23,709 nt of DNA from assembly GCA_027600665.1 (NCBI GenBank), contig JADGJL010000365.1, forward strand, positions 1 through 23,709, in the 5' to 3' direction. A program made the translations under genes and the position numbers. Of this stretch, positions 968-23,345 are shown in pieces. Each line of letters opens with the position of its first letter. Position 1 is the stretch's first letter. This stretch comes from Irineochytrium annulatum (lineage: Eukaryota > Chytridiomycota > Chytridiomycetes > Chytridiales > Chytridiaceae). The notes beneath the pieces were generated by a model. The model saw nothing but the letters and a program-made list of their open reading frames with translations. It was not told the DNA's origin and did not search any database.

Positions 968-2194
968 TCACACCTCGTCTTTCCCCATCTCAGAGTGCTT
1001 GATCGCCGTGTTGGCCCCCGCGGTGTTGTTGTTCGTCGACATCTTCGAGATGGTGGTCCTCCTCGACATGCTCTGGTCATTGCTCGAGCCCATGCTCGTG
1101 TGCTGGCCCCTGAAGATAAGCTGGTACAGGGGCTTTTGCTCAATCCAGGAGCTCAAGCACCAAGACATAAGCCACCAGTCGCAGAAGGAGAGCTTTGAGC
1201 CCGTGTAGTTAAGCTGCTCCTGGAAGCCGACGAGGATCGCGAGGACCGAGAAGAGGCACTCGACCACGAGGGAGCCGACGATCGTGCGGAAAGCCTCCAT
1301 GCCGCAAGATTCCATGTACTTTGCGCGGGCGGCCTGGAGCTTGTAGATGGAGTAGACGTCCATCCCGAGTCTGAGAAAAAACTTGTTATTTAGTCATTGC
1401 GTCCGCGATAAGCAAGCCTAACAAGTTCTCCACCTAATAAACAGCACGGGCAGGAGCGTCGCGATCTGCAGGTTGGTGGCGTTCTGCGACAGGCCCGCGT
1501 TGGCGACCGCGCCCGTCTGGGACGACACGACGAAGATGAGGACCGTCCGCGCGAACCTGACGGCAAACACGACGGCGCAGAGCGTGTACCCGGTGATCTC
1601 GACCATCCTCTTCGCCGACTTGACGTTGAGGAGCGCGTTAAAGCGGACGAAGGACATGTGCAGAATGCCGCAGAGGACGAAGGAGTAACATAGCGTCGCG
1701 GTGGCGGTGGCCCAATAAAGGTTTGGGACCGTACCCGCTATGGTGCGCGGGGACCAGGTGTTGAGCACGTTGACCGTGATGTAGCAGATCCAGCAGGCAA
1801 CGCATGCGGCCGCGATAATGTCCTGATACGTGCCATTAGTATTGAAATCTCGAAGGTCACGATGGGGACGCTCTTACGGTGCCGGTCAGCTTGCGGGTGC
1901 ACAGGGCAAGGCCATACTAATTTGAAGGGGCATCAGATTAGCATCCCGTAGAGGTTATCAGCACGCAGGCAATCCATTCTCCGGCCCCAAAAAAAGCACC
2001 GTCACCGAACGAACGTCACACGTTCCGCGACGACGACTTTTGGTAGAGGCCGGGGCTCACCTTCAGAATGCTGAAGTAAGAAAAGCCAGCGGCTGCACAA
2101 GAATAGAACGCGTTAGTAACTAAGGAGTGGGTGGCATCGTGCTCTCACCAAGGATGGAGAAGTTGGTTCTGTCGAAGACGGCGATGGCGCTCAT
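968..2194 (-). CDS. Multi-pass (7TM-like) membrane protein, orphan family
   Basis: I read five exons: 2149-2194, 2061-2092, 1878-1916, 1434-1822 and 968-1370. They join in frame to 302 aa. Introns start GTGAG, GTGAG, GTAAG and GTGGAG; intron 3 carries an ACTAAT branch motif just before its TATCAG acceptor. The protein begins MSAIAVFDRTNFSIL. It has about six or seven hydrophobic segments, roughly at residues 12-32, 40-61, 75-96, 115-138, 155-170, 197-216 and 230-248. The cytosolic-looking tail is Ser/Thr/Asn-rich. The layout resembles a 7TM protein, but I see no rhodopsin, cAMP-receptor or pheromone-receptor signature, so the function is unknown. It lies 578 bp downstream of the adenylation-ABC fusion gene on the same strand. 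A decayed copy with the same exon order sits at 10535-10975. Exon 3 is the least certain. Confidence 0.72.
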
Positions 2195-2772: not shown

Positions 2773-5700
2773 TTAAGCAACGCCTGCGTTCGCCAAGTAT
2801 AGCCTGGAGAACAGCGAGTTCGGGTCCCTGAGCAGCTGGAGCGGCGGGCCCTGCTCAGCGACCACCCCGTTGTTCATGACGACAACGGTGTCGCAGTCCC
2901 GGACGAGGTTGCTTCTGATGCGGTGGACAACGCTGATGAGCGTCGCGTTATGGCAGTGCTCCCGAATGGCCGTCTTCAGCTTGTTGTCTGACTCCTGGTC
3001 GATCGACGATGTAGCCTCGTCCATGAGCAGGATCTTGGGTTTGATTAAGAGCGATCGTGCGAGGCAGAAGAGCTGGCGCTGGCCGACGGAGAGGTTCTGA
3101 CCGCCGTTGTCCATGACAGTCTCGAGCCCGTTGGGCATAGCAGCCACGTACTCATGCATGCCGACGAGCTCAAGCGCGACCCAGATCTCGTCGTCGGTAA
3201 ACTTGCGGAGGAGGTCGAGCGAGTCCCTGATCGTACCGGAGAACAGGAAGGGATCCTGCGGGATGATCTCGATGCCCTTGCGGACAGTCTCGATGCCCAT
3301 GGCGTTTATGTCCCGATTGTCGATCGCAATGTAGCCCTTGACGTCCACGAGCCTCATCAAGCAGGAGAGCAGCGTTGATTTGCCCGAACCCGTCCTACCA
3401 ACGATGCAAACAGACTCTCCCGGGTGGATCTTGAGGCTTACGCCACGGAGAACGGCCTTGTCGGGCTTCGCATGGTAGTATGCCGTCACGTTTCTGAATT
3501 CGATCATCCCTCTCTTGGGCCAAGTACCCTCCGGCGGGTCCGACTGGAGGACCGGGGGGTCCTCCTCGGGAAGGTCAACGGCGTATTCAACCAGACGCTC
3601 AACAGAGTTCATCTCGGACTCGGCGTTAGCGGCAGATTTAAGGAGCAGGTTCATAATGTAGGACATGGAGGAGGCGTAGATCAGAGCGAGGCCGAGCTGG
3701 GATGGAGAGGGTGCGATGTTCGTGGACGAGATGCACGCGAGCGTGAAGACGACGAAGGCGGACAGAATCTCCATGCGAAGCGTAATCCAGACGTCGGCGT
3801 TAAAGCGAAGGAAGGCGGGCTTGTTCGATTTGTCGAGCAGCCTGTTTGCCTTCTCGATAAACTGACCCTCAACGCCGTAGGCGGTGATAGTGGGAATACC
3901 GTCAAACGTCTCCGAGATGTGGGCGTAAAAGGGCGAACGCTCGGTTGACTCGAGACGCTTGAGCTCGCGGACGGTAGCACGGTAGAAGCGGAGGACGAAC
4001 AGGTACAGAACGAACAGCGGAACCAGAACGGCGATCATGAATGGGGCCGAGTAGATTAGGATGACCAGGATCGAAATCAGAGCGCCGACACCGGAGACGA
4101 ACTGGAAGATCTGGGGCATCATTCTCTGGTCGATCGACTCGACGTCCTTGGTAAACCTGTTCATGATACGGCCGATAGGCTGAGTGTCGAACCACCAAGC
4201 AGGAGCGTTCATAAGACCGGCGAGGGCGGCGTTGTGAAGGGTTCGGGCGTTCCTGATGATGATTCGAAGAATGACGACGTTGAGCAGGCCTGCCAGAGTC
4301 AGAACAGTCAGCGTATGGTCCAATCACACCAAAGGGGGCTCTGTAACTTACAAAGAATGAGCACGGAGGAGTAGGCGATGATATTGTAGTACTGCACGTA
4401 GAACGACGTCGGTTGGTTCTCAAAGTAAACGTCTGTCCACCAGGTGAGCCACTGGTTCATTATGATCGTCGCGCCCTGGTAGACAAGCAGTAACGTCACA
4501 AGCGCTACGACTATCGGCCACCCTCCGGCGCCTAAGATGTAGCTCTTGTAAGTCGACCACTTAACCGATCCAGTCTCCCTGTCCTCCAGCGCGAATGCCG
4601 AGTCCTCCTCCTCCTTCTTTTTCTGCATCTCCCTCGACCTGCCCGGTTGGTTGTTCCTCAGCCTGCGGAGCGTATCGGCCCTCGTCATCTTCTTCTTCTC
4701 GCCGCTCGCGCCCTGCTTGGGACCCTGGGGCACGTCGTCCTCGAGATCGACAGCCGCCATCATATACTCGGCAAACTCATCTGTGGCCATAAGGGCCGGG
4801 AAGGTGCCCTGATGGAGGATACGGCCGTTCTGCATGTAGATGATGTGGTCGCACTCGGCAAGAACGTCACGCTTGTGGGTCGTGATGATACGGGTGCGGT
4901 TGTGAAGCTCGTGCTGAATGCAGTCCTCAAAGACAGCGCGGGACACCGTCTGGTCGAGAGCCGCGAGGGGGTCATCGAGGATGACGATTTCTGTACCAGT
5001 ACTATCAGCAATATTCCCAACACTCCATACATAAAAGCACATAAACTTACCAGCATTGCTGTATGCCGCCCTAGCCACCGCAATCCTCGCCTTCTGTCCA
5101 CCGGAAAGGTTCACGCCCTTCTCACCAATCTCCGTCTGGAAGCCGTGCGAGAACGAGTCGATATCATCCTGCATCTGCGTCCTCATAACCACCTTCCTCA
5201 GCTTCTGCACATCTAGCGGCTGGCCGAACAAGATGTTGTCCTCAACGGTACCCGTTCTGATCCACGGCTGCTGCGTGCAGTAAGCCACGTTGCCCGTTAC
5301 ATGGACCTGGCCCTGAATCTTGTTGACCTCGCCCAAGATGCCCGCCAAAAGCGTCGTCTTGCCGCACCCGACGCTGCCGACGATCGCCGTGAGCGAGCCC
5401 TTCCGGATCGTAATGTTGATGTCGTGCAGCTGGAACTGCGACTCGGCGGACGCCGCACGCCCGCGCGCCGACATTGGCAACGATGCCGACCCTGCAACCT
5501 CTTTACCCTTGCCTTTGTCAGCGCGGGGCATAGACACGCCGTTGATGGTAGACGCCCCGTCCGAGTCGTCGTCGTATTCGTCGATCGTGTTGGCATTGTC
5601 CACAAACCTCACGGTCACGCTCGGGTTGTTCTTAAACGTGTCCTCAGAAGGCGTCGTGAGCATCGACGTGGTCGTGACGGCCGTAGTAGGCGCGTGCGGC

Positions 5701-8700
5701 TCCTTCTCCAGGTCCTCCGACTTAACACCCTTCCTCCCCTTCTTCGGGGAACCCTTCGCGCCTCCGCGTCCACCGCGTCCACCACGACCGCGACCCTTCG
5801 GCTCCTCCTTATGCGGAGGCGGCCAAGCGAATGTGGCGTTGGTGATGACGATAGGGTCGATCATGTTCGTACCGTCCGGTCCATACCCGACAGTCCGGAC
5901 GCGCTCCTTGCTGCAGAGGAATTTCTGGATGCGGCCGCGAGACGTGAGGGACAAGATGTAAGCGCTGAGGACTTGAGGCAGCTGGATCAGCGGGTCGACC
6001 AGCATGGCGAAGAACGAGATGGCCGGGAAGATGATTGAGGCCTTAAGGGTAGCGTTCGTCAGGCCGTACCGCGTGAAGGCGGCGACGGGCATGATGGTGT
6101 TTGAAAGCTGGCCAATGATGACGAAGCAGACGACGCCAGTGTTGAAGGTCGTGAGCCAGCCGACCTGGACGGCGCGGATGCCCTGGACCTTGTCTGCAAA
6201 GAGGGCGGACCACCCGCGCATCTTGACAAGCTTTATACCGTCGAGAAGCTCGCGGATGAACTTAATGCGGACGTCGTTGACGGCCGCGAATCGGGGGGAG
6301 GAGCGACCCATGAAAATCGGAACGATGAGGATGAGGAGAACGAGCGAGGCTGCGAGCGCGCCAACACCGGCCCAGACGGCCGGGCCAAGGAGGCGGGAGA
6401 GCAGAATCATGTTAATCACGATCTGTAGCGGGATCGACCAGATTAGGTGTACGACCTCGAGGGACTTCGAAATCTTTTGGACAAAACCAACAGTTTAGCT
6501 ACATTAAACGCGACAATGAATGTAAACTCCACAAAGCTACTCACCGACTCGCAATCCACGTTTACTAAGTTCAAGACATGTCCCTTCGAGAACTCCCCAT
6601 TCAGGTCCGTCCTCAACGCCTTCCCGTAGATCGCGCCTACTAACACGCTCCGGTACCTGAAACCCTGCCTCCTGACAATCAAATCGCTCGCCCTTCCGGT
6701 CAAGCTCGCCAAGATCCTTGCCGCCAACAGGATGCCCGCGACGGGGTACACCGTCTTGAACAGCAGCGGGAACCCGCCCGTGAAGGTCATGATCTGATCA
6801 TTGTACGCGTCGATGAACGCCTGCGTCGCGTTGTCCGGCAGCGGGGGCGCATTGACGATGACGATAATCTGCTGCAGCAGTAGCGGCACGCAGATTTGGG
6901 CCAGGATCGAGACAAGCCATAAGAAGGCGGAGAAGAACCAGAGAAACCGGGAAGCTTTGTAGACGCCCGTGAGGATGCGAGGGGGGTTGGTGGGCTTGAC
7001 CTTGCCCTCGCCGACGAGTCGCCGCCAGCTGGCAAAGTCGTCAAACCATCGAGACACCCACGACTGTGCGACTTCGGCCTCGTCCGAGGTCGGAAGCCGG
7101 GGCAGGTCGTCGGGTGTGAGGGCGCGCTTGGCGCCGACAGCCATGATAGGGTTCATCCATGAGACGGTCATGAAGTTGAGGGGGTTGAAGCGGATCTGGC
7201 GGGTCGAGGCGGGAGAGGAGACGGATGTGGGGACAGGGACGGCGGGGGTGCCGGCGACGGAGGCGTGTGGAGTACCGGCCTCAAGCTGGCCGGGGCTAAG
7301 AGGGACGACCTCGGCCTTGCCGCCGTCCTTAAGGACGACCTCCGGCATGTGGGGAACAGGCTCAAACTCGTCCGCGCGGAATACTGACTCGTCAGAGTCA
7401 GAGTCGTCATCGCCGCGAATCGTTCCGGCAACGGTTGAGTCACCCCAATGTCCGTTAACTGAATTTACAATTAAGGATTGAAAACCCACAGACAAAGCAA
7501 AGCGTTAAGGTACTCACCATCGACCTCGTTCACCATCATGACCGAAAGTGCCATCGGCGTCACCTCATCATCGAACAGATCCGCCATGGTGCCGACATAC
7601 TTGTGCTTGCTTTGGAGCCAGAAGTAAAGCTGCACCATCGTGATCGAGTTTAGACCAGAAGACCTCAGCGGCGTCGTAACCGGCGGCGGCTTCCCCTTCG
7701 GGAAGGAGATCAGGTCCGCGATCTTGTCTGAGATCTTCAGCGCGGCCTCCATCTCCTCGGCCGAGTACTCGGAGAACAGGTCGCCGCCTGCACCAGGAGC
7801 GTCGGATGCACCGGCCGGCGGTAGCGGGGACGACGCTCCAGTCCTGGGCGGCGCGACGGGCCCTGCCGCAGCGGGCTGATCAGCCGACGAGGTCCGCAGA
7901 GAGAACTGCGGCGCGGTGCCCGAGTCCGCCCACTGCTGCAGCAAATTCATGTCGATCTTAAAACTTGCGTTGTACGGCATGTCGTCCAAAAGGCGAACAA
8001 CGTGCAGCGGCACATCCTCCTTCTCGAGCGCGGCCCTCAGCGCCTCCTTCCCAATCTCCAGCATTTTGACCTCAATGTCTGGTGCCGAGAGACCCTGCAA
8101 CTCGGCCATATTCGGCACGGCGTAGCAGATAACCGTCCTGTTCGACCCCGTGACGACCTTGATGGACTGTGCCATAGGCGGGTTCGTGTTGGCCTTCCCG
8201 GGCAGCAGGCACTTCTTCAACACGCCTTCGACCTGGTCAAGGTCGACAAAGACGCCATTAACCTTAACGGATCGGGACCGACGACCGACGATGGCGATGC
8301 GGCCCGAAGACGTCATGCGGCCGACGTCATCGGTGTACAGGAGGATCTCGTTATCGGCTTTGCGGCCGTAGGGGCGGAACATGTGCGCCGTGGCTGTCGG
8401 GTTGGCAACGTAGGAGGTGGCGGTGTGAGCCGAAACGATGCCGACGATGCCGGTCGTGCCGGCCGGGCAGTCGGAGGGGAGGACCTCGTTGGTGTCAAGG
8501 TCGAGGAGGACGAGGGCCTTGCAGCCCTGGGTCGCGGAGAAGGTGATCTCGGACGGGACGGGGTCGGTGGGCTTGATGAAGTGCTGGCAGACGCCGGCGA
8601 AGCCGACTTCGGAGCACTATCCCAGCACGTAAACAAGCTGAAGGGAGAGAAAGAAGATAATGAGTGACTTACAGCATAGTTAACGGCCACTGTCGCATTC

Positions 8701-10158
8701 GGGAACACCTTCTTTGCCAACGAGATAATTTCCAAATCCACGTTCTCCCCACCAACGACCATCCAGTAAACCGAGGGGAAAACGCCTTTCCCTGCCCCCT
8801 GTGCTGCCGCGAAATCCGTGAACGCCCGGAAGATACTCGGGGTAAAGTGGACCCTCAGCGGCTGCTTCCCATGCACTGGGTGGTTCAAATGGTTGATCAC
8901 ACTCTGGCACTGGTCCACAACGCCCGTGCTCGCGTCGAGGTACAGCGTCGTCTGGTTGAACATGAATCGCCTGATCTCGAAGAGCGGACGCAGGAACGTC
9001 GTCCCGCCCCGCAGCCACTGCCCGTCCTTATTCCGCAACATAGACGACGACTCAATGGCCAGGGGTTCGAGCGATCGAGACGTCGGGTACACGATGCTCT
9101 TGGGGACGCCTGTCGAGCCAGAAGTAGGCGTAACGCACGCGATCTCGGCGGGACGGGTGGTGATCTCGTCGCGCATGATATCGCGGACGTTGACGGGTCC
9201 CGAGGGGTACTCGACGTCCGTGAGGGTGCTGATGAGGCTCACGGCGTCGGTAGGCTCTAAGGAGCCGTTGGAGCGCTGGCGGCGGAGCGTGCGGGTCAAC
9301 GTCGTTGCGTTCGGGGCCCTAGAGATGGTGCCCATGGGTGTGCCGGTCGGCGTTGGGAGGTTCATCGCGCTGGGGCTCGCGGTAAAGTTGCCGCCGACGC
9401 CGCCGACGCCGGCGGCTTGGCTGCGGGAGTTGTTGTTGCGGGCGAGAGTGGCGACGACGACCTCCGGGATGACGGGTTCGAGGGCTGCGGGCGGGGGTAC
9501 GACAGTGCCGTGGAGGATGTGGGTCACGCCGGTGCGGTGAAGGATGGAGTTGATGACGGCGGGTGACCATTTGGTGTTAAGGTAGACACATGTCCGGCCA
9601 GAGAGCCAGACCGCATGTGATGCGCATACATAGTCAATCTCAAGGCTGTTTTTTTTTTAGGGGGGATAAGGAATTAGTTTAAGTGGGAGAAGGAAAGTTG
9701 TAAAAGAAAGCAAAAGGCGGAGGTAAGCAACGCGGAGGCAATTAAGTCTGGTGGTGCCTTTGACATCATGACCTTCGCCTCCATGCCGCCCCGTCTGGTG
9801 CTGTGCAGGGCGACCGAGCTGTCTCTTCTCGCGAGTCCCGTCTCCAAATCCCGCGGAGGCCATCCGCGTCCTCGCCGCCCCCGTCCTCGCCGCCCCCAGG
9901 TCTGATCCAACCCCGCAGTCCCCACGGCCCAATCCCAGTCCAGGAGGTAAAGCAGCGCCAGCAAACGTACTTCATGAAGATGCCGACGTGGGTGGTCCGC
10001 TCGCTCAGGACGGCGTTCAGCTTCTTTTCGATGCATCGCGTCCGCTGCCAGACTTGCGCGTACGTCCACTCCTGGTCGCCCTGCCGGACGGCGACGAGCG
10101 TCGGATACGCCTGCGAAACGCCTAGTAGCGCTTCTGTCGGAGTGAGCTTGTTGTTCAT
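2773..10158 (-). CDS. Adenylation-carrier-ABCC exporter fusion (NRPS-like A-T plus MRP-type transporter)
   Basis: Seven exons (9971-10158, 8673-9645, 7518-8616, 6545-7458, 5051-6473, 4352-4990, 2773-4289) total exactly 2251 codons. A domain (about 1-615): TSGSTGVPKS at 237-246 (A3), ACSEVG at 387-392 (A5), YTDDVGR at 481-487 (A7), GRRSRSVKVNG at 498-508 (A8) and FKID with Lys607 (A10). A low-complexity insert lies at about 130-200. Carrier (about 670-750): SSGLNSI, with Ser711 as the likely phosphopantetheine site. An acidic linker follows. The ABCC part starts near 845 with MNPIMAVGAKRALTPDDLP and has no TMD0, as in Yor1/ABCC4-type proteins. NBD1: Walker A GSVGCGKTT 1424-1432, LSGGQ 1514-1518, ILDD with Asp1539 instead of Glu. 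NBD2: GRTGSGKST 2043-2051, LSVGQ 2145-2149, MDE with Glu2170. No condensation, thioesterase or reductase domain is seen. Inferred role: activate and tether a carboxylic or amino acid and export a product. The substrate is unknown. Confidence 0.9.
5754..5795 (-). repeat. RG/GRG-rich low-complexity insert inside NBD1
   Basis: This DNA encodes GRGRGGRGGRGGAK (fusion residues 1285-1298). It opens an insertion of about 120 residues between the first beta-strand of NBD1 (ending FAWPP) and the strand leading to Walker A (starting FQLHDINITIRKG). The insertion is basic at first, then Thr/Ser-rich and acidic, and looks disordered. ABCC NBD1 domains usually have only a short loop here. No splice signals remove it and the frame is open throughout. 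Confidence 0.7.
9646..9970 (-). other. Long first intron of the fusion gene
   Basis: This 325-nt intron is several times longer than the others in the window. It begins with the good donor GTACGT and ends after an unusual A-run in AAAACAG (plus-strand T-run at 9649-9658). A pyrimidine-rich stretch and an ACTAAT-like motif lie upstream of the acceptor. Using these sites turns the codon into AAC and restores the adenylation frame exactly (VGIFM, then LEIDYVCASHAVW). It contains a tandem GC-rich repeat of a GGGGGCGGCGAGGAC-like unit near 9880-9905. A small extra exon inside it cannot be excluded. Confidence 0.65.
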
Positions 10159-10534: not shown

Positions 10535-10975
10535 CATGGCTTCCATCGCCGCGTTCGACAGAACTTCGTTCCCTGCCCCTCGGTGAGCCCGCGCCGACGT
10601 GGCCGTGTACGGACGGGTTCTCAACTTCCTCGCCAGCCGCTGTCGACGCGGCAGGGGCTGGCATGTCGCGTCCTCCATGCGTCCTTCACGCGCTTAGTAC
10701 CTTTGGTACGGCCTTATCCGGTACACCACGCAAAATATCAGGCACAGTACGGACAGCGCTCCCACTCTCCGCACATCGACGTCCTCACCCACCCACACAC
10801 ACACACACACACGCACACACACAGTCGCAGGACATCATCGCGGCCGCTGTGTGCTGGCTCGTCTCCAACGCCGTTAACGTCCTCAACGCCTTGTCCTCTC
10901 GCACCATACCGAGTACAGTTCCAAACCTCTACTGACCACCGCCACCGTGAAACTCTACTCCTTTGAACGGCGGTA
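10535..10975 (+). pseudogene. Decayed inverted copy of the 7TM membrane-protein gene
   Basis: The ATG at 10535 opens MASIAAFDRTSFPAP, matching the start of the intact gene (MSAIAVFDRTNFSIL), and is followed by a GTGAG donor at the equivalent place. From about 10829 the frame reads DIIAAAVCWL..., then VNVLNALSSRTIPSTVPNLY, matching exon 4 of the intact gene (VNVLNTWSPRTIAGTVPNLY). It then hits a TGA exactly where the intact gene has TGG. Nucleotide similarity continues in shifted frame through the ACCGCCACCG segment to about 10970, then ends. Exons 2 and 3 are barely recognisable, and a CA microsatellite lies in the former intron before exon 4. The exon-1 junction carries an extra base. Intron positions are retained, so this arose by DNA duplication, not reverse transcription. 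The last half of the gene is missing. Confidence 0.82.
10794..10823. repeat. (CA)n microsatellite
   Basis: About 14 near-perfect CA units with one CG interruption. The repeat lies inside the pseudogene, in the segment corresponding to the intron before exon 4 of the intact 7TM gene. Confidence 0.95.
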
Positions 10976-11271: not shown

Positions 11272-14200
11272 ATGTTCGGCCGCCAGCTCAAGGCGCAGGC
11301 CGCCGCGGTGCGGGTGCCCTCGAAGCGGCAGGTCCACTCGCTGTTGTTCGGCCGGGACGCCGCGGACCTAGACTCGGACTCCATTTTTGCCATCGGCTGC
11401 AACGGCCTCGCGGGCCTGGTCATGCGGGACGAGACCTTCGCCGTCTTCGAGCACTCGCTGTTCTCGGAGGCCATGAAGTCGGCTGACAGGAACTTGATGG
11501 TTCGGTCGTCCTAGTGTCTTTGGTGGTGGTTCTGAATGGGGGATGTAGAACGCGCGGGAGAACGACGAGTTGAACAAGACCATCGAGAGCTTCATGATGC
11601 TGGCGTCGTCGCATTTTCTGAATGAGGCGACCATGAAGGCGCTCGAGTGGCTGGCTCTCAGGTTCAGGGTCCACCAGCACAACGTGGACGCGATTATGAA
11701 GTGCATTCTTCCTTACCACGACACGAAGCAGTTCGTGGAGGTGGTTGCCGTCCTTGACATCAGGTTCGATGCTTTGTTTGGGTCCTCGAGTTTCTCCTTC
11801 CACGTCCATTTAACGCGACCGTAGTACCCACCCGCGATGGAGCTTCCTCATGTTCGTGCAAAAGACGGCGGTCCCCCTCACCCGCGCAAATTTAGTCAAG
11901 CGGATAGGCTCAGACACGAAGGTCTTTGCCGTCATATGCGAGATGGTCGAGTCGACTTTGACGAGCAAGTCGCCAAATGCCAATGCGGCGTCCTTCCTGG
12001 CTGCCCTCATGAATGAGATTCTGGAGAAAGGCGGGGATTTGATTTACGAGCTTCAGGTCACGCTCCTGCCGCTTCTGCTCAAGATGATCGCGTCGGCGCA
12101 TCGGGATTTTCAGGTTTGTTTGCTGGACGAACTATCGCTTTAATATTTAAACTGCCTCATGCACACCGCAGGCGTCTGCATTTATTATCATCGCCAGCGC
12201 CTCGAAGCAGGTGACCTTTGCGTCGGATTTCGTCGATTTGCTCGTTACTGCCGTGATGGGGTCGACGACGAAGTCGCTCTACGAGGAGGCCATCTGCTGT
12301 GTGATGGCCGTTGCCGAGGCCCGCGATGAGCCGTTACACTTCCCGAAAAAGGTCGGGCATGCTTTGACAGGAAAATCGTGAGTTTTTTGTTTTTTTTTCT
12401 CTTTTTGCCTTCCTTTTGTTGTATTTGGTGTTATTGTTAACGCGCTGGGCGATGTCCATCTTGCGCATCGATAGGCCTCTTTGGGACGCTATCCTGCGCG
12501 TCGTGTCTTCGGCGGGCACCCACCACTTCCTCCTTGGCCTTTTCGGGCACCTTGTCGACCAATATCTCGCGGCGAGCGACGCTAACGACCGATCGGCTGT
12601 CAATGCACGTGTCATCTCGCTCGTTGAGCGCGCGCGGATGTCGCCGGACGTCGTTGGCGCCGTCGCGGAGATAATCTTGGGTCTTGCCGCTGGTGGGGAG
12701 GGGAACAAGGAGCGAATGGCGTTCGTGGAGAAAATCATCAGGGCCTTGTGCTTTGCCGACTCGGGAGTCGCTAGCGTGCGAATCGTGGAGGGGATTAAGC
12801 GGTTGAAGGAAGGATCGAGGCAGCGCGAGGCGCTACTGAAGATGACGCTTTCGGCGCTGCAGGTGATTAGAGTTATGTTCTTTTGATGGATTTAGCTAAC
12901 GCTGCAACATTTATCTAGGGCTCCATTCATCAACCTCTTACGGATCTGAACTCGACCCTTTTTCTGAGCCTTCACCACCCTGAGGCTCACGTCCGGCTCG
13001 TGGCGTTTGAGCGGCTTAAGACCGTTCTACTTCCTGGGTCAGGAAAAAGCGCCGGATTTACCGTACGTGTGATAAAACGCCCGATTGCGACTCATGGGCG
13101 CTTTCTTGCTTAGGACCATTCCTCCCTCCCGGAGCTACTCCTCGGCGGCGTTCGCGACGAAGACGACGCCGTCGTGCGGACCGTTCTTTCGATGGATCAC
13201 GTGATGAGGATCAGGCCCGACGTGTTTTTGCCAGAGCTGGTTCGCATCGTAACGGATTCTCCGTCGCCGGCCACACAGCAGGCGGCGATTATAAGATTGT
13301 TGCGCGGGGTGAGGGAAGGCGTGTTTAAGATGGACGCGAATTTGATGGATGTTTTGTTCGCATTCTTGCTAGTGACTTATGAGGTATGTCGGTTACCTTT
13401 TTTATTATCACATTGCTGATGGCGTGTGTGTTTCCAGCGAAGAAGCTTATGGCCTTACGTGATTGAATTGATGGGCTCGGGCACGTTTCCGGTTAAGGCG
13501 ATTGGGGCCGCACCAAATGCACTCAAGACTCTGGTAACCGAGCTTGCGGCGAAAGATCACTCCTTTAAGGACTCCTCTCGGCTCGCAGCCGAGGCGCTTT
13601 CCATCTTCGTCTCCGATGTGGCTTGTGCGTAGCTTCTCTATTTCGCTAACGTGTACCTTCCTAAACGTCCGCGCGCTCTATTCTAGCAAATGCATTGAGC
13701 GGCCCGGACGCGGCGGCTCACACAGCATTTTTGTTGCAGAGCCTGGCATCGAGGCACCGGGGCGGCCGCATCTTAGCCGGGCTAATCGTCCGGCGCATGT
13801 CGGCTATCCAAGGGGCGACAACGGCAGTGCAATTGAAGATCGTTGTGGCGGCGGGTGCCAGGCTGAGCGGGATGAGGGTACAGCGGGCTTCGGCGTTGAC
13901 GGGCCTTATGACGGTTTGTTGTCCGATAATATCCTGGTCTTTGTTAAAGTAAGACGTTTTTTGTATAGGTGGACTTTGCGTCGGTTGTGAAGGACGGCGG
14001 ATCGAATGCCGCGCTGGAGTTCAGCTTGCTGGTGGACCTTATTTGCGGTGCACTTGGGCGGTGCGGCCCTGTAGTTGCCGGCGACTGGCTTGCCGACGCC
14101 AACGATGTAAGCATAGGATTGTCCTCTCCTTTTTGTGCCACCGCGTTCTAATTTTGTGTGGTGAGCAGGCTTTTGTTGAAAAGCGAGCTTTGGTTACGGC

Positions 14201-17200
14201 CTTTGACTGCCTTTCCCGCGCACCTGCCGCTGAGATCGTATCTAGCGCGCTGATCCACATGTTTAGAGCGATCCTGAGGAGTCAAGCGCTCCCGTTCCTT
14301 GCAGGGGTATGGATTGATCAAGGTAAGGAATTATTTGGTTGCTTGCTTTGACGTTGATGAACCAGATTTGCCGGCTGTGACGCGGGTTAAGGCCCTGGAG
14401 ACGGCGTCGTCGCTTTTGGTAGCGTATGCGGGCGGCAAGGATACCTGGGACTTCCAGGTCATCCTGCCGTCGGTGTTTATTGCGTTGGCTGATACAAACA
14501 AGGTAGGCTTGTCTTGACCCCTCTTTATGATAGACTTACATTGTGATTAGGGCGTGCGAGGTGCTGCTGTGAAGTGCATCCGTGCTGCTCTGCGCAATTA
14601 CAATCGAGGGTTAGGAAAGCCGAGCAAGAACGTTTTTGCACATGACAGCTTTTACGGCGCTCAAACTGGTTAGTGAGCGGACGGAAAGTTGTGAGCAATG
14701 TTGTTAAATGGGCTTTGCAGAGAACGTTAAGTTCATGACGCAGGATCTAATCTTGCGGCTGATCTCATTGGTCGTCGACTCGGGCGAGGAAATATTTTCG
14801 GAGCAGGGCTTCTTTCAAAGGCTCTTGGTGAAGACTTTGCAGCAAAAGGAGGGTGCCGATCCGAGCATGTAGCTTACCATCGTTCAACGCTAGCTAACTT
14901 TATCGAAGTGATAATATTTTGATCTCGCTCCTTTCTCACATTCTCGTGATCCCGCGCCGGAGCGCCAAGGTCGCCATACTAGACCTGCTGAAACCTATCG
15001 ATACCCCGCTGAAGCTCCGCACGCTTCGCCCGCTCTTTACCACGTACTTCAACGAGGAGAAGGCAGCGGGAGCACCATCGCCAGATGACAGCGGTGTTAG
15101 GATGCACCTGCTCGACTGCTTCTCGCCCGTGTCGATCACGACCATTTTTGCATCGAAGAGCGGGCGCTTCTTGCCGCTTTTTACCTCCATCATCTCATTC
15201 GGTAATCAAAATGTTTTAGGATTTTGATATTGACATGGAAATAGGGTCCGCCGATGAGTCGATAAAGTGTTTGGGCCTAATTCGCGACTCGTGGTTCGCC
15301 GCGCTGCCCGCTAAGCAACAAGAGTTCCTCGTGACCGCTATCCTCGACGCCGTCATTGGGGCGGGGAAAGAGGTCTCCCAGGTTGCTAGGGAGGTCTTGT
15401 ACGGACTGACTTTGCCCGCGGGCTTGCTTGTGAACGCGCTGAAAACATGCGAGATGCGGATAAGGGAGATCAGCGAAAGCGGCGGCGTGAAGCGGGCGAG
15501 AGCCGACAGGTATGGCTGTGGCTATCTTGTCCGCAATATCTGACGCGCCTCGAAGCGACAACAAGGGGAGCTACTACCGTCTCGCGACGATTCTGGAGCT
15601 TATCGAAGCCGAGAGCGTGAAGTTATCGTCAATGGGCGACCTCATCGGTCCGGTATTCGACATTCTTCAACTTATCCTCGGCATCCAGTCGGATGCGACA
15701 CCCGTATCGCCCGAGTACCTGAAGCAGCTATGCGTCTCGGCCGAGCTAAAGATCGTCAACGCCGTCAAGGTAGTCGTACGTACTATTCTCTTTCTTACTG
15801 GTACGATTCAGGTCGAAAAGCATAAGTTGGACGAATTCACCGTTCGAGTGGACCTGATTGTGCAGTGCATCAGAGGTACTGATCACCACCCGTCTTTCTG
15901 GGCAGAGCAGCAGTTGAACTCTATTTTAAATAGCCACGGACAACCCGCAAACGCACAACACCGCGCTCTTGCTCATGTCTTCGATCGCCGTCTTGTATCC
16001 CGAAAGCGTGCTCAACAGCATCATCCCCGTATTCACGTTCATGGGCGCAAACGTTCTCCGCCGGGACGACAACTACAGTTTCCATGTCATTCAGCAGGTG
16101 CGGTGTTTTGCGCTGCAATCTTGTTTCCGCTAACGCAGCAAGCAGACGCTTGAGGCCGTATTACCGGCCCTCGTTTCACATCATCACGGGCAAAAAGGTT
16201 CTCACGCTCTAAATGGTTAGTCCATACCCTCACTCCTCGCGCTAATCATGTCGATAGAGATGAAGCCCATTCTTGACGTCTTTATAAATACCCTGTTCCA
16301 CGTGCCAAAGCATCGGCGACTGAAGTGAGCTCTTTGAGTGCCTAAGAGTTCTCTTCTAATCTTGATAAGGCTCTTCATTATATTGACCTCAACGTTGGGA
16401 CCCCAAGAGTTCTTGCACGCCGTCATCCTGATGCTATTTGTGAAAATGGTGAACCGGACCAGCGAGGATGCCGCCGAGGCGCAGAACATTCCATCGTTCT
16501 GCTTAAGCCTGGCGCAGTACTTCTCTTGCGCGCAACAACTAAATGTATGCGGCTTATTTCTCCTTTTGGCTTGCTGACGATGTTTGTAGGCTATCATTGC
16601 TGTCCACAAGTTGCTAAAGCAAGCGATTACGCAGCCACCGTCGGGTGCTAAGGCTTCAGCGTTTGATTTAAGGTTCGCGCACTTGAAAGCCATAAATCTG
16701 ATGCTAGGTGGTGGTAGCCATTTGTCCGACAGAGCGCGGCGCAACCTGATCCTTTCATCATACGATTTCGTGGCAAACCTTCTCGCTAGTCGGTCGTTCG
16801 TTAGAAAGTTCAAAGGCGACGACGACGGAGGCGTCGGAGATGGCGCTGCAAATGAGGCGAACGCGCCGCTCTTCGAGCTCGTCGAAATCTTGCTCGATAA
16901 TATTCTCACCGTGCACGAGGCCGTCGCGACTGGAACTGGCATTGGCGCACACGCGAGTTTTGGGAAATGTGCGTGATTATCGATCTGTTTTACTTTATTG
17001 CAGCTGATGCTGGATCGTTATACAGCGGCATTGAAGCGATTGAACGTTTCGCTGGCAAATGTGATCGCTCTCTTGCCCTTGGAGTCGTTCTTGGACCTGA
17101 TTGCGTCGATGATCGACCACCGCAACCCGGCCGTGAGTTCATTGTGATTTGTCCATGTTTAAACCCTGTTTGTTTAGCTTCGTCGGAAGGCTATCACGAT

Positions 17201-19186
17201 TCTTGGCGAAAAGGTGAACCTTCTGCCTGCCAAGGGCCGCGACGACTCGTCCTCGCTCTTCCACGGCGTCTTTGCCAAGCTACACCGAAATGTGGCGGCG
17301 CACGGCGACGATGAGGGGGACGTGACGGTTAGGCAGGCGTCGCTCATATGCCTCAACTCTATGATCTTAGCTTTCGCTAAGGCAGATCCGGCGCTGTACC
17401 TGTCGCTTGCCAGCGCATTGCTGGACGAGGGCGGGCTTTTCCACGCGGACCGGAACATACGGGCTTCGTCCATTGTGTGCATGACATCACTGTGGTAGGG
17501 ATTGAGAGAAAGCATTCATGATGTGTATGTACTGACTGCCATTTAGCCAAGAGCTCGGTGCAAGGGTCGTCCCACATATTCCGAAGTACGTTAATGCGAT
17601 TTTGGCGGAAATCAGGAAGGACTCCGGCGGTAAGGGATTGCTTTGTCTCTTTGCGTGCAAAGGCCGCTGACAAGACAAACTCTAGACGGCCTTGCGGACG
17701 ACGTCGTCTTCATCAGCGCGCTCACGTCCATCGACACAGTCATCAAGACGGTCCCGACCTTCGTGAGCCCCTATATCATGGACGTGCTCGACGTCGTCCT
17801 TTCCTCCGACTCGCTCAAGTCCCTCCTCCAGTCGAACGCGAGCCTGTCCTCGAAGCTAAACGAGCGGAAGCGCGACATTATGTCCAACCTCGCGTCCAAG
17901 GTCCCCGCGCGCGTCCTCATCCCGTCCATCTCGGGCTATACTGCCCGTGCTATGGCCCGCGGTCCGGGGGCAATGCTGGAGCTCTTCGAGATCGCGAGCA
18001 TGATGATCTCGCACTTGGACAAAGTCGAGCTCGCGCGACACCATGGCGAGCTGGCCGACTTCTTCCTGTCGAGCTTTGATTACAGAAGGGCGTGCGCCGG
18101 GCGGGTGGATGGAAGGGATCTGGACAAGGTCGATGGCGGCGCGTCGTCGGCGTTCACGCAGATGGTTCTGAGGTTGAATGAGACGTTATTCAGGCCTATT
18201 TTTTTCCGGCTTGTCAATTGGGCGACGAACGACATTGCGGGCAAAGGTCTGCTTGAGTGCCCTGAAACGGATGATGTACTGATGTCTACAATAGCGCCGC
18301 CAAAGGACATCCACAACCGCCAGCTATTCTTCTACCGCCTCGTGGACTCGCTTCTTGGGAAGCTAAAGGTATGTTGTTTGTATCGTCTTCAATCGCAAGG
18401 TACTGGTACTGACTTCATAACAACATAGTCCATCATCTCCCCTTATTTCACTTCCGTCCTCGACCATGCCTCCGACCTACTCGCGTCATACCCGACGAAA
18501 GGGGCGATAGACGACCTTTGGCCGTGCGTGCTGTCATGCTTGACCAAATTTTTCACGTACAACCCGGAACCACTATCCATTGAGAAATTCGAAAGGGTGT
18601 GCGGGACGGTCGTGGAGCAGATGGGATTGGCCGGAGCGGGGAGGGTTGATTTGGTGGGTCTACGCTTCGTTTTTTGCTGGCTACGGAGTGAGCGCTAATT
18701 GATGGATCATAATAGGAGGTCGTGATCAAGTCGGTGATACCTTGCCTCGGTCAAATGGCGACGAACGTGGGCAAGGAGGCCGCTTGGAAGACTCTGAACA
18801 AGGCCATTCTGGAGAAATGCAGAAGCAAGCACTTCCAGGTATGGTGAATGCTCAATGAGGCAACGATTGCGTTTTCATTGTTCTATTGAATGCATGAAAA
18901 TCATATTAATGATGCCAACAGGTACGGATTCTGAGTCTCAAGGCGCTCGAGGAGCTCTACACACGCCTTGGAGACGAGTTCCTTGTGTTCCTACCCGAGA
19001 CGATACCGTTCATGGCGGAATTGATGGAAGGTTCGTCCTGCAGCGGCTATTTCCCCCCCAGTTTGCCCTTTTTACTGATTTGGTACTATTTCAGATGACA
19101 ACGAGCAAGTGCAGATTGCGTGCAACGACACGGCGGCTGAGATCCAAAGGCACCTCGGCGAGGACATCAACACGTTCTTCTCGTAA
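11272..19186 (+). CDS. UTP10: U3 snoRNP / SSU processome scaffold UTP10 (HEATR1)
   Basis: About 31 exons join in frame to roughly 2093 aa, within the family range (yeast about 1770, human about 2140). The N-terminus shows the hallmark ALEWLALRFRVHQHNVDA followed by ILPYHDTKQFVEVV. A mid-region block NSIIPVFTFMGANVLRRDD is also diagnostic. The rest is helical HEAT-like repeats. The BP28CT region lies near residues 1685-1800 (KVPARVLIPSISGYT), and the protein ends in acidic helices (GEDINTFFS). In the family it scaffolds the t-UTP subcomplex, binding nascent pre-rRNA in the nucleolus for 18S processing and Pol I transcription. Exon ends, in order: 11499, 11763, 12113, 12377, 12862, 13062, 13383, 13624, 13913, 14106, 14322, 14502, 14668, 14868, 15201, 15509, 15769, 15875, 16097, 16215, 16324, 16544, 16968, 17132, 17494, 17629, 18368, 18653, 18838, 19030, 19186. 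Uncertain points: donor GTTCGG at 11500, intron 15770-15811 (frame-neutral), the acceptor near 16142-16145, and the acceptor at 17025. Confidence 0.93.
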
Positions 19187-19256
19187 TGCAGCTTCACGTA
19201 CAGCTTCCCATTTCGTTTTTTGTTCAATTTGCTGTTTTTTTTTTGGTCTGCTTGCT

Positions 19257-19673
19257 TCACTTCTGCTGTTGCTGATGTTTGTCGTTTTGAAGGGCGAGGA
19301 GGTCCAATTTTGTGGTTGCGACCTGGATGTGCGGTTATCATGAGAAAGAACGATTTAAATTAGCAAAGAATGGACACAAACCATATCCAGCAGCATCTTC
19401 ATCTTGAGCCTGAGAAGGTTGTTTTCAGCCTCGAGCGCCCGATTCCGCTCGACCAGGTCCGAGTTCACGTTGTCTTCGCACCGCCAGGATCTCCCCTCGT
19501 ACACCAGGGTCGAGTCGCCCAGGGTGATTGCGACAGGCTCCTCGCGATCCTCAGGGTAGAACTCGGAGCGGCGCTCCTTGACGGGGCTCTTACCGCGTTC
19601 ATTAGACAAGAGAATTGAAGTCCGTTTATCAACGTACTCCTTTTTTGAAGGACTGGGAGAGCCGCCTGATCAT
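19257..19673 (-). CDS. CBY1: Chibby-family basal body/ciliary protein
   Basis: Three exons (19638-19673, 19382-19588, 19257-19322) join in frame to 102 aa, close to the usual Chibby length. The core ITLGDSTLVYEGRSW followed by a heptad region with LEAENNLLRLKMKMLLDM matches the family signature (a short beta-like 'L..G..L.YE.G.W' block, then a coiled coil with ENNLLRLK). The first exon gives MIRRLSQSFKKG, then SPVKERRSEF, recalling the basic, SP-containing N-terminus of animal Chibby. Intron 1 has a GTACGT donor and a CTAAT branch motif; intron 2 has GCTAAT and a CCAG acceptor. In animals Chibby acts at the distal appendages and transition zone of basal bodies and also binds beta-catenin. Here a flagellar basal-body role is the likely one. 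It converges with UTP10; the two stop codons are about 70 bp apart. Confidence 0.86.
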
Positions 19674-21231: not shown

Positions 21232-23345
21232 ATGACGGCAACGCTCGAGGACGAGGACTTCAGTGATGAGTCCGAGGAGCTCGAGGGCGAGATCCGGGCC
21301 ATCCTGTTTAGGGCCGTGATGAACCGGCCGTCGGCGCTGGACGACACGCGGATGGACGCGAAGGCGGCCCTGCTGCGAGGTAATTTTAACCTCCACAAAC
21401 CTTTTCTGAACAAAACTCAACGCCGGACGCCTGCTGATTTAATCTTTTTCTAGGGAAGCCAACGTTTGGGAAGATGCTGTTGGACCCCGAAACGCCGCTC
21501 GTCCCTGCAACGAGGGTCATGATGTTCCAGCTGTTCGATCTCCTGTACCTCGTGAACTCGTCAATGGGCCTCACCATCACGGGGAGGAAGGACGAGAAGT
21601 ACGAGAGCCTTCCCGATCACGACCGTCCGACATTTTCGTGTCAAGCGTTGGTTGGCGCCATCAACACGTTTGCCTCCGTTCGATGGGTGTACCCGCATAG
21701 GCGTGATCATGTCGATGTTATGACAAATCTGCATACTCAGGTTAGGAGCACTTCGGTTTTTTTGTTTTTGTTGCGTTCCCACGTGTATTTTCGGGGGCAT
21801 GGTTGCATTAACCCTCGCATGTAGCTGTATATCGCTCAATGGAAGAGGACCGGGAAGCCCCCAAAGCCAACGCGGATTTTCAATTTCGCCAATGTACGGA
21901 AAGGAAGCGAAGATGACCCTCTGAATAAGTTGATGGAACAAGGACTTCGGATTCGATGTGAAGAGGTTGGAATTTGTTCTATTGCCAAGCTGATGATTAA
22001 CACCGTGGTAGGTGGAAAGCACGATTAAAATGGGCGGGCAACTGCACAGACTTTTCACAAGGCATGAGTTTATTGGCTCGTTTGCGGCGCACCTGCATAG
22101 TGTGATGGAAATGATTCTCGAGATGGAGAACGAGTCAGCGGTATGATTGATTAAAATAACCTTATACTGAGTTTCACTTTATAGGAATCCCAAAAGGATT
22201 TATCGAACGCGAGAGGAGGGCCGCAATTGTTGAGCGAGCGTGACGATGCCAGTAGGGGCGGCAGAGCCGATGATATGGAAGAGGACGAAGAGGAATTCTA
22301 CGAAGCCGGCGACGAGTTCGACTCGAGGGTTCGTCCACCGTCAGTTGACGAGGAGACATTGGACGACGAAGCCGAGCTCGATTTCTCCGACGACGAGCGC
22401 GTGCAGGAGTTCACAGAGCTGATGAAGCGGTACGCGGTGCCGTATGTGAAAACCATGAAGAGAGAGTAAGTTCTCCAGATAACAACTTTTAGTTTTAACA
22501 TCATGTTCGTAGGCCGGAGGCCGACATGGAGTCCCTTTTCAGAAAACGTGAAAAGACGTTCTCGAATTCCGTTGGACCGAGCCCCAGGCGATCGGCAGCC
22601 AACTCGCCACCAGCGACTGTACGGCCTCACTCGAAGGGTCCCGCCCACGCCGTCGAGCGCTCGTCGCCTCAACGGAATGGGAAGCGGGCGAGCAAGGCCC
22701 GAAGCTTGGCGTCACCGGTGACCTCAGAACGCCGTCGGTCACCCACCCGCGACGGCGTCGAGGAGGAGGAACCTTTGGGTTCGGTGGCAAACGGCCGGCG
22801 GGCGGACAGGCTGCGGACGTCGACTGGGAGGGTGGAGGTGGGCGAGGACGAGGACAATGATGAGGCTCTCTCGGAGGCCAGAGCTGAGGAGATACGGAGG
22901 GTCGCGCGGGAGATGGCGGCGCAGGCGTTTAAGAATGCGGAGGCGAAAAAGAAGAAGCCGCGAAAGCCTCCGGGGGTCTGGCAGCCGCGCGAGCGCGAGG
23001 TTGTGGAGGACGCGGACGTCGATCACGTCGATGGGAACATCCCGCGGGCGGTGCGTCCGCCGCGCGAGAAGCAGGCGGGCAGGAAGAGGTGGACGGACGA
23101 GGAGGTCGCGGCGTTGGAGGATGGGATGAGGAGGTACGGGGTGGACTGGAAGTCGATCGTGGCCGCATATGGGAGCGCGGGGACCGGTGAATTGGCTGGC
23201 CGGACCAACATCAACCTGAAGGACAAGGTAATCAAAAAATTTGAATTTGCAACAAGTAATCGACGAAAAATAGGCGCGCAATGTAAAAAGGGACCGTTTA
23301 AAACAAGGACTTGACCCCGGGGTTTTTGAATTGGCGACAAATTAG
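21232..23345 (+). CDS. TRF-like telomere-repeat-binding factor (Tbf1/Taz1 type)
   Basis: Seven exons (21232-21379, 21454-21740, 21825-21965, 22012-22140, 22185-22465, 22513-23227, 23274-23345) join in frame to 590 aa. The N-terminal half (about 1-240) is helical and placed like a TRFH dimerisation domain (for example MMFQLFDLLYLVNSSMG, then AINTFASVRWVYP). A strongly acidic stretch follows at about 258-315, then a Ser/Arg-rich and basic linker. The C-terminus has a single Myb domain (about 518-575): RKRWTDEEVAALEDGMRRYG, VDWKSIVAAYG, then NLKDKARNVKR. The last is the telobox helix; the form LKDKARN and the longer loop before it are as in yeast Tbf1 and fission-yeast Taz1, whereas vertebrate TRFs have KDKWR/KDRWR. 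Expected role: binding double-stranded TTAGGG-type repeats at telomeres or as a subtelomeric/promoter factor. The last intron splits the telobox after LKDK. Confidence 0.87.

Follow-up and report, generated by a model that had tools for sequence, protein, structure and literature searches.

A chytrid gene joining an adenylation and a carrier domain to a full ABCC-type exporter, and its possible role in coupled synthesis and export

The fusion gene and its second copy

The DNA analysed here, referred to as the window, is a stretch of 23,709 nucleotides from the chytrid Irineochytrium annulatum (Chytridiales), corresponding to contig JADGJL010000365.1 (C398) of the 26.9 Mb assembly of this species. 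Its minus strand carries, from position 10158 to 2773, a gene whose seven joined exons add up to 6753 nt, that is, 2250 codons and a TAA stop codon, with no internal stop. The predicted protein contains, in this order, an adenylation (A) domain, a carrier (T) domain with Ser711, and a full exporter of the ABCC type of ATP-binding cassette (ABC) transporters; we therefore call it the fusion gene. A seven-exon model with consistent phases had been proposed in an original prediction made from the letters of the DNA. This model holds: the frame lacks internal stops, all six introns are of the GT-AG type, and all six are kept in a second copy of the gene. The length of 2251 codons given with it is right for the frame, but this figure counts the stop codon, and the protein has 2250 residues.

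Exon 1 (9971..10158; like all features of the gene, on the minus strand) begins with the start codon at 10158 and encodes residues 1 to about 63; its beginning, M..TPTEALL, is common to four of the related proteins discussed below (P0002-P0005). Intron 1 (9646..9970; 325 nt, GTACGT..CAG) separates it from exon 2 (8673..9645), which encodes the core of the A domain, including motif A3 (TPTSGSTGVPK) and the larger part of the substrate pocket. After the 56-nt intron 2 (8617..8672), exon 3 (7518..8616) runs from motif A5 to motif A10 and through a linker into the carrier domain; the codon of the catalytic A10 lysine, Lys607 (in MPYNASFKID), lies at 7957..7959, and that of Ser711, the predicted phosphopantetheine attachment site (in SSGLNSI), at 7645..7647. 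Intron 3 (7459..7517; 59 nt) marks the junction between the carrier and transporter parts. Exon 4 (6545..7458) encodes an acidic linker, the segment NPLNFMTVSWMNP, which we take to be lasso-like, and, after it, the first part of the first transmembrane domain (TMD1). It is followed by intron 4 (6474..6544; 71 nt) and exon 5 (5051..6473), with the rest of TMD1, a low-complexity insert, and the first nucleotide-binding domain (NBD1) with its Walker A (GSVGCGKTT) and signature (LSGGQKAR) motifs. Exon 6 (4352..4990), which lies between intron 5 (4991..5050; 60 nt) and intron 6 (4290..4351; 62 nt), contributes the NBD1 Walker B motif (ILDDPLAALD), a linker and the start of TMD2, and exon 7 (2773..4289) encodes the rest of TMD2 and NBD2 (GRTGSGKST, LSVGQRQ, LLMDEATSSID) up to the stop codon at 2775-2773. 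The public model of this gene, HK101_007416 (P0001), begins at exon 2, and its C-terminus is joined to the next gene, which is the membrane-protein-like frame at 968-1873 (minus strand). P0001 thus represents the window gene itself, with its start displaced and a further gene attached at the C-terminus, and we did not count it as an independent homologue.

A whole-genome search returned a single further copy, P0002 (HK101_010929), located on the minus strand of contig C873 (20441-13170). The two copies have 86% identical residues, and in the C873 copy all six introns are retained at homologous positions and in the same phases, and one extra intron is present. According to the method of Nei and Gojobori, applied to 2202 codons, they differ by 0.96 synonymous (dS) and 0.099 nonsynonymous (dN) substitutions per site, a ratio of 0.10. 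No flank common to the window contig and C873 was found (blastn at E 1e-5; frame-by-frame blastp at 1e-6), and hence the C873 copy is a dispersed duplicate. Given the lack of a shared flank and a dS of about 1, we rejected the reading of the second copy as a haplotype of the first.

The view that the A-T unit and the exporter belong to one gene hinges on intron 7459-7517. This junction, which had been singled out when the gene was predicted, recurs at the corresponding place in the C873 copy. Between the two copies, 76.9% of the aligned bases of the intron body are alike, against a mean of 72.6% and a maximum of 88.9% for shuffled sequences; the intron body thus shows no likeness beyond that of shuffled sequence, while the flanking exon ends are 80-82% identical. 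The repeated junction, the diverged intron body and the similar exon ends make it very unlikely that two adjacent genes have been merged by a false intron. It is true that read-through of the intron meets a stop codon in both copies, so that a product consisting of A-T alone is conceivable, and that the single-gene model is predicted from sequence. Yet the splice sites and the frame have been kept at a dS of about 1 although the intron body diverged, and continuous homologues exist, namely a protein of Astraeus, P0003 and P0005. The contig that encodes P0003 measures 6368 bases, and the protein takes up 2004 codons of it; a frame with so few interruptions suggests that one transcript covers both halves. 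The homologues are therefore not always two separate genes, since proteins with continuous A and ABC parts are found among the matches listed. On the strength of the intron conservation between the copies we rejected a gene-model artefact, to which we attach hardly any credence.

Activating and carrier domains

The A domain is recognised by Pfam as AMP-binding (PF00501, residues 16-456) with 76.1 bits, against a cut-off of 29.9. The motifs that we take to be A3, A5, A7, A8 and the A10 lysine were all located, and Lys607 (Lys220 of exon 3) is invariant in a 22-row alignment with full-length nonribosomal peptide synthetases (NRPSs), in agreement with the assignments made earlier. Condensation, thioesterase and reductase domains are absent from the best 25 of the 40 Pfam families matched by the fusion protein; downstream of the carrier, ABC transporter sequence continues until the stop codon, without a C-terminal reductase.

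The substrate pocket was read from five fusion A domains aligned by L-INS-i with 45 NRPS counterparts selected by the motif F[DE]x[ST]. At the positions presumed to correspond to the nine pocket positions of PheA, the residues are L, R, F, H, V, G, N, F and A, with a Lys at the tenth, and this set is the same in all five fusion proteins. In an alignment made without the motif filter, the five fusion rows have Leu at position 235 in the presumed PheA numbering, where Asp is found in 104 of the 109 NRPS A domains. The 45-row alignment agrees with this, and a phmmer alignment to PvdL places a Glu at this position with low posterior, so that Asp is absent in either case. Asp235 holds the amino group of alpha-amino acids. 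The pocket thus suggests that the substrate is probably not an ordinary alpha-amino acid, and its simplest reading is a conserved, non-standard acid; we know of no pocket code that matches L R F H V G N F A K. Between P0002 and P0005, the A core is 62% identical, versus 50-51% for the NBDs. When the genome was searched for further copies of this type of A domain, exon 2 matched the two copies only, and exon 3 matched the two copies and three weak NRPS-like stretches. No bacterial relative was found among 54 stretches from 84,980 prokaryote genomes, a weak negative that is based on two peptide patterns only. The predicted fold of exon 2 (mean predicted local distance difference test score, pLDDT, of 60.0) was too poor and was not used.

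The assignment of Ser711 (Ser324 of exon 3) as the carrier serine agrees both with the 22-row alignment, in which it is nearly invariant with the NRPS carriers, and with a predicted fold. Structure prediction, suggested as a check along with the original prediction, gave an AlphaFold2 model of exon 3 with a mean pLDDT of 75.4 and a predicted TM-score (pTM) of 0.43. In the carrier part of this model, the ten-residue blocks have pLDDT values of 84-92, apart from a block of 68 and the final one of 77. The modelled helices span residues 286-303, 324-338, 344-348 and 354-362, so that the second helix of a four-helix carrier fold would begin with the serine. In a Foldseek search with the 365-residue model, ranks 1-3 were taken by PvdL (9up2) and LgrA (5es8, two chains), aligned over 352-360 columns including gaps; the whole-model TM-scores are low (0.26-0.43, root-mean-square deviation 11-18) because the domain positions differ. 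A second look with VIA-align covers mainly residues 2-239, that is, the A part, and barely tests the carrier.

The comparison of the two chytrid copies indicates that the A core and the carrier are under strong purifying selection. The dN/dS ratio is 0.078 for the N-terminal core of the A domain, 0.060 for the A core and 0.055 for the A C-terminal subdomain, and the value of 0.048 for the carrier means that it is as constrained as the catalytic core. The TMDs (0.05-0.09) and NBDs (0.07-0.10) have similar values, and higher ones were obtained for the linkers that precede (0.31) and follow (0.25) the carrier, for the linker after NBD1 (0.12) and for the low-complexity inserts (0.19-0.29). Together, the conserved catalytic residues, the constraint on the carrier and its predicted fold support the earlier proposal that the protein would activate a small acid and hold it on a pantetheine arm; a hand-over to its own exporter, proposed at the same time, may follow. 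ABCC proteins are known for regulatory roles, and the A-T unit could instead be a sensor: the exporter would be gated by whether the carrier is loaded with a metabolic acid, in the way that regulatory domains gate other ABCC proteins. The two long and variable linkers and the invariant pocket would suit such a role. A sensor, however, would not need the full set of catalytic motifs, including the A10 lysine, and the carrier serine, all of which have been kept, and we regard this explanation as improbable.

The exporter part and related fungal proteins

Two ABC_membrane and two ABC_tran stretches are found by Pfam in the fusion protein, and Walker A, signature and Walker B motifs are present in both NBDs. 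The two half-transporters that had been predicted are thus borne out as two TMD-NBD halves. There is no hydrophobic segment before residue 922, and a linker of roughly 100 residues leads from the A-T unit to the transporter. In NBD1 the Walker B motif is followed by an Asp (ILDDPLAALD), and NBD2 is canonical. The best NCBIfam match of the second copy, P0002, is MRP with 713 bits, and that family scores 755 bits for P0004; both values are well below the equivalog cut-off of 1470, and the exporter part is accordingly ABCC-like and not MRP itself. Exporters of the ABCC4/ABCC5 and CFTR type are ABCC/MRP proteins without the N-terminal domain TMD0. The fusion protein resembles them in its two TMD-NBD halves, the Asp after the NBD1 Walker B motif and the canonical NBD2, but it differs in having an N-terminal A-T unit and in forming a separate clade in the tree described below. 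An RGG-rich low-complexity insert lies between TMD1 and NBD1 (about 5735-5800, residues from 1285), and the low-complexity inserts of the chytrid copies are absent from the basidiomycete homologues.

Protein database searches, which were confined to proteins between 0.55 and 1.75 times as long as the query, returned at least 93, at least 68 and at least 9 matches. According to precomputed Pfam domains, AMP-binding and ABC domains occur together only in P0001-P0005 among the matches listed. P0003-P0005 are 47-48% identical to the C873 copy; P0004 (48%) is from Astraeus odoratus (Boletales), to which P0003 and P0005 are 78% and 83% identical in the matched region. A further relative, P0157 of Chiua virens (Boletales), has a model that lacks the first part of the A domain, with the transporter part still predicted, and it was left out of the pocket count and the tree. 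In a tree of 18 ABC parts, of which 13 non-fusion rows were hand-picked from the matches and some have long branches, the five fusions form one branch with a Shimodaira-Hasegawa-like approximate likelihood ratio test (SH-aLRT) value of 100. Horizontal transfer between chytrids and Boletales is a possible explanation for this distribution.

The same data bear on the idea that the two parts act separately, the A-T unit in trans with some synthase and the ABCC part as a general exporter, and that the fusion merely secures co-expression. This idea would fit the weak constraint on the linker between carrier and transporter (the dN/dS of 0.25 given above) and the Chiua virens model, in which the transporter part is kept and the carrier serine is lost. 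On the other hand, the fusion has been kept from chytrids to Boletales as one clade, and no split version stood out among the protein matches listed, although a lone A-T protein could not have appeared there owing to the size range of the searches. We judge separate action of the parts to be unlikely, if still worth bearing in mind.

A protein of this architecture, for which the original prediction had suggested a search, was thus found in Astraeus odoratus and as P0003 and P0005, and it has been described before in Basidiomycota. The available passages of Kovalchuk et al. 2015 (PMC4692070) describe a Boletales ABC-C transporter with an AMP-binding N-terminal domain that forms a separate, isolated group; they cite an earlier finding for Serpula lacrymans, Coniophora puteana and Ceriporiopsis subvermispora, attribute the first report to Kovalchuk, Lee and Asiegbu 2013 (doi 10.3852/13-001), note for C. 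puteana and S. lacrymans an association of the homologue with NRPS clusters, and repeat from the earlier work the hypothesis of a tight coupling of biosynthesis and transport. Since both are in print there, neither the architecture nor the idea of coupling is new for basidiomycetes. Like the members of that group, the chytrid gene encodes, in one protein, an AMP-binding domain followed by a full ABC-C transporter, and it falls in an isolated clade. A carrier domain, an analysis of the pocket and a chytrid member are not mentioned in those passages, and whereas the NRPS cluster is unspecified there, one chytrid copy adjoins a polyketide synthase (PKS)-NRPS gene. In the open-licence literature, a description of the A-T-ABCC architecture was found in PMC4692070 alone, and the relevant passages of Kovalchuk and Driessen 2010 (PMC2848647) contain no such fusion. 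As far as the open-licence literature reaches, what we add is a member from a chytrid, the presence of a carrier domain, the invariance of the pocket and the pairing with a PKS-NRPS.

Other known systems share parts of this organisation. In the ChNPS12-type NRPS-like proteins, as described in the passages available from Bushley and Turgeon 2010 (PMC2823734), A domains are joined to ferric-reductase-type membrane domains; these proteins are similar to the fusion in combining a single A domain and a membrane domain in one fungal protein, but the membrane part of the fusion is of the ABC_membrane type, and the comparison concerns domain make-up. The NRPS modules with an A domain and a peptidyl carrier protein, such as PvdL and the initiation module of LgrA, have the same order and a fold like that predicted here for the A C-terminal subdomain and the carrier. 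Unlike them, the fusion has no condensation or release domain and a pocket without the Asp of domains that activate amino acids. Adenylate-forming reductases of the Lys2/AAR type, finally, have a C-terminal reductase where the fusion has an ABC transporter after the carrier.

Genomic neighbourhood and proposed function

The second copy of the fusion gene is arranged head-to-head with a PKS-NRPS gene (C873, 22346-34075), the first recognised ketosynthase (KS) frame of which is 1.9 kb from the fusion start codon. Exon-sized frames of this gene encode KS, acyltransferase (AT), dehydratase (DH), condensation, AMP-binding, carrier (43.1 bits) and thioesterase (TE; 65.3 bits) domains. Its A domain has a pocket (FDPFV...) that differs from that of the fusion, so that there is no obvious common substrate. 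Two further copies, on C336 (6.5-18.3 kb) and C175 (20.6-32.5 kb), bring the number of PKS-NRPS genes with a terminal thioesterase to three; a ketoreductase (KR) domain was recognised in the C175 copy. The C336 and C175 copies are 73-78% identical to the C873 copy in the main blocks and 82-83% in shorter ones, and 84% identical to each other. Three similar frames on C873 (5836-7278, 8459-9940 and 35861-37348), situated on either side of the PKS-NRPS/fusion pair, resemble by eye F-box/leucine-rich repeat proteins, and the one that was tested has no Pfam match.

In fungal secondary metabolism, synthesis and export are usually carried out by separate proteins. Our preferred reading, which we put forward tentatively, is that the fusion is a membrane-bound synthesis-plus-export protein, in which the A-T unit loads one acid, a partner synthase uses it and the exporter removes the product. 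The cytosolic N-terminal A domain would adenylate a single specific carboxylic acid, which is probably no ordinary alpha-amino acid and which would then be loaded onto the phosphopantetheine arm of the protein's own carrier at Ser711. A partner assembly line might take up the loaded acid, or its product might be joined to that acid; the PKS-NRPS gene that lies divergently beside the second copy plausibly encodes such a partner. The fused ABCC exporter would remove the finished compound. The gene structure, the conserved active sites, the constraint and the place of the second copy next to a PKS-NRPS are observed; the substrate class, the use of the carrier in trans, the cargo and the cytosolic side are inferred. 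The fusion would thereby probably tie the making of a compound to its export.

Several observations weigh against this reading. The carrier family PF00550 scores 13.1-17.8 bits, below its cut-off of 20.8, in all five carrier pieces, although up to E 10 no families other than two carrier families are listed for these pieces. The carrier serine is kept in five of the six proteins (P0001-P0005), whereas P0157 of Chiua virens has a Pro in its place and a Ser for the Asn of the A5 motif; this lineage may be dispensing with the carrier, or the gene may be decaying. Searches with tblastn using PKS-NRPS pieces found no PKS-NRPS in the window, but weak A-domain-like or chance matches only, the best of which (E 0.001) coincides with the A domain of the fusion itself; it should be kept in mind that the 3' side of the window copy is known for 2.7 kb only, to the contig end. 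No fusion gene lies on the stretches examined around the other two PKS-NRPS copies, C336 in full and C175 from 12001 on, and the pairing was thus seen for one of the two fusion genes and one of the three PKS-NRPS genes. With its own A, T and TE domains, the PKS-NRPS does not obviously need another A-T unit. Finally, the passages available from PMC4692070 report no cluster association in mycorrhiza-forming Boletales. Apart from its bearing on function, P0157 is possibly a natural loss of the activating half.

A self-contained relay, in which the carrier hands the thioester-bound acid or a released derivative directly to the fused exporter, is the form in which the function had originally been conceived. 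The domain inventory given above, without condensation, thioesterase or reductase, would agree with it, as would the absence of a synthase beside the copy in the window and the linker of roughly 100 residues that joins A-T and transporter. Such a relay, however, needs a releasing step that the protein lacks, and we know of no ABCC exporter that takes a covalently bound substrate. The pairing of one copy with a PKS-NRPS, together with the NRPS-cluster links reported for two Boletales in the passages of PMC4692070, suggests a partner synthase over a relay of this kind, which we consider unlikely. Somewhat less probable still is a carrier-fed exporter, in which the thioester-bound acid is presented straight to the transmembrane cavity of the ABCC part and activation, tethering and export form a single cycle; if true, this would be a mode of loading an ABC exporter that is new to us, and one kept between chytrids and mushroom-forming fungi.

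The covalent joining of an activating enzyme to an exporter, kept between phyla with an identical pocket, makes the coupling of synthesis and export testable in one polypeptide. The identical pocket points to one conserved acid. The chytrid copies also widen a little-noticed basidiomycete family, and the PKS-NRPS beside one of them is a candidate partner.

The remaining features of the window lie on either side of the fusion gene. On its 5' side there is a UTP10/HEATR1-type gene at about 11800-19300 (plus strand; extent estimated from open frames), in which a BP28CT domain (74.3 bits, within the frame 17634-18425 on the plus strand) is the sole domain recognised. A Myb-like DNA-binding domain in the frame 22499-23311 (plus strand) scores 22.1 bits, below the Pfam cut-off of 24.4. 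On the 3' side, the membrane-protein-like frame at 968-1873, which has no Pfam match, is followed by the contig end. The fusion gene is flanked by an inverted repeat of about 130 bp with 76% identity (1696-1825 on the minus strand and 10828-10950 on the plus strand), each arm of which codes for part of one and the same membrane-protein-like frame (DIIAAA...NVLN...TVPNLYW).

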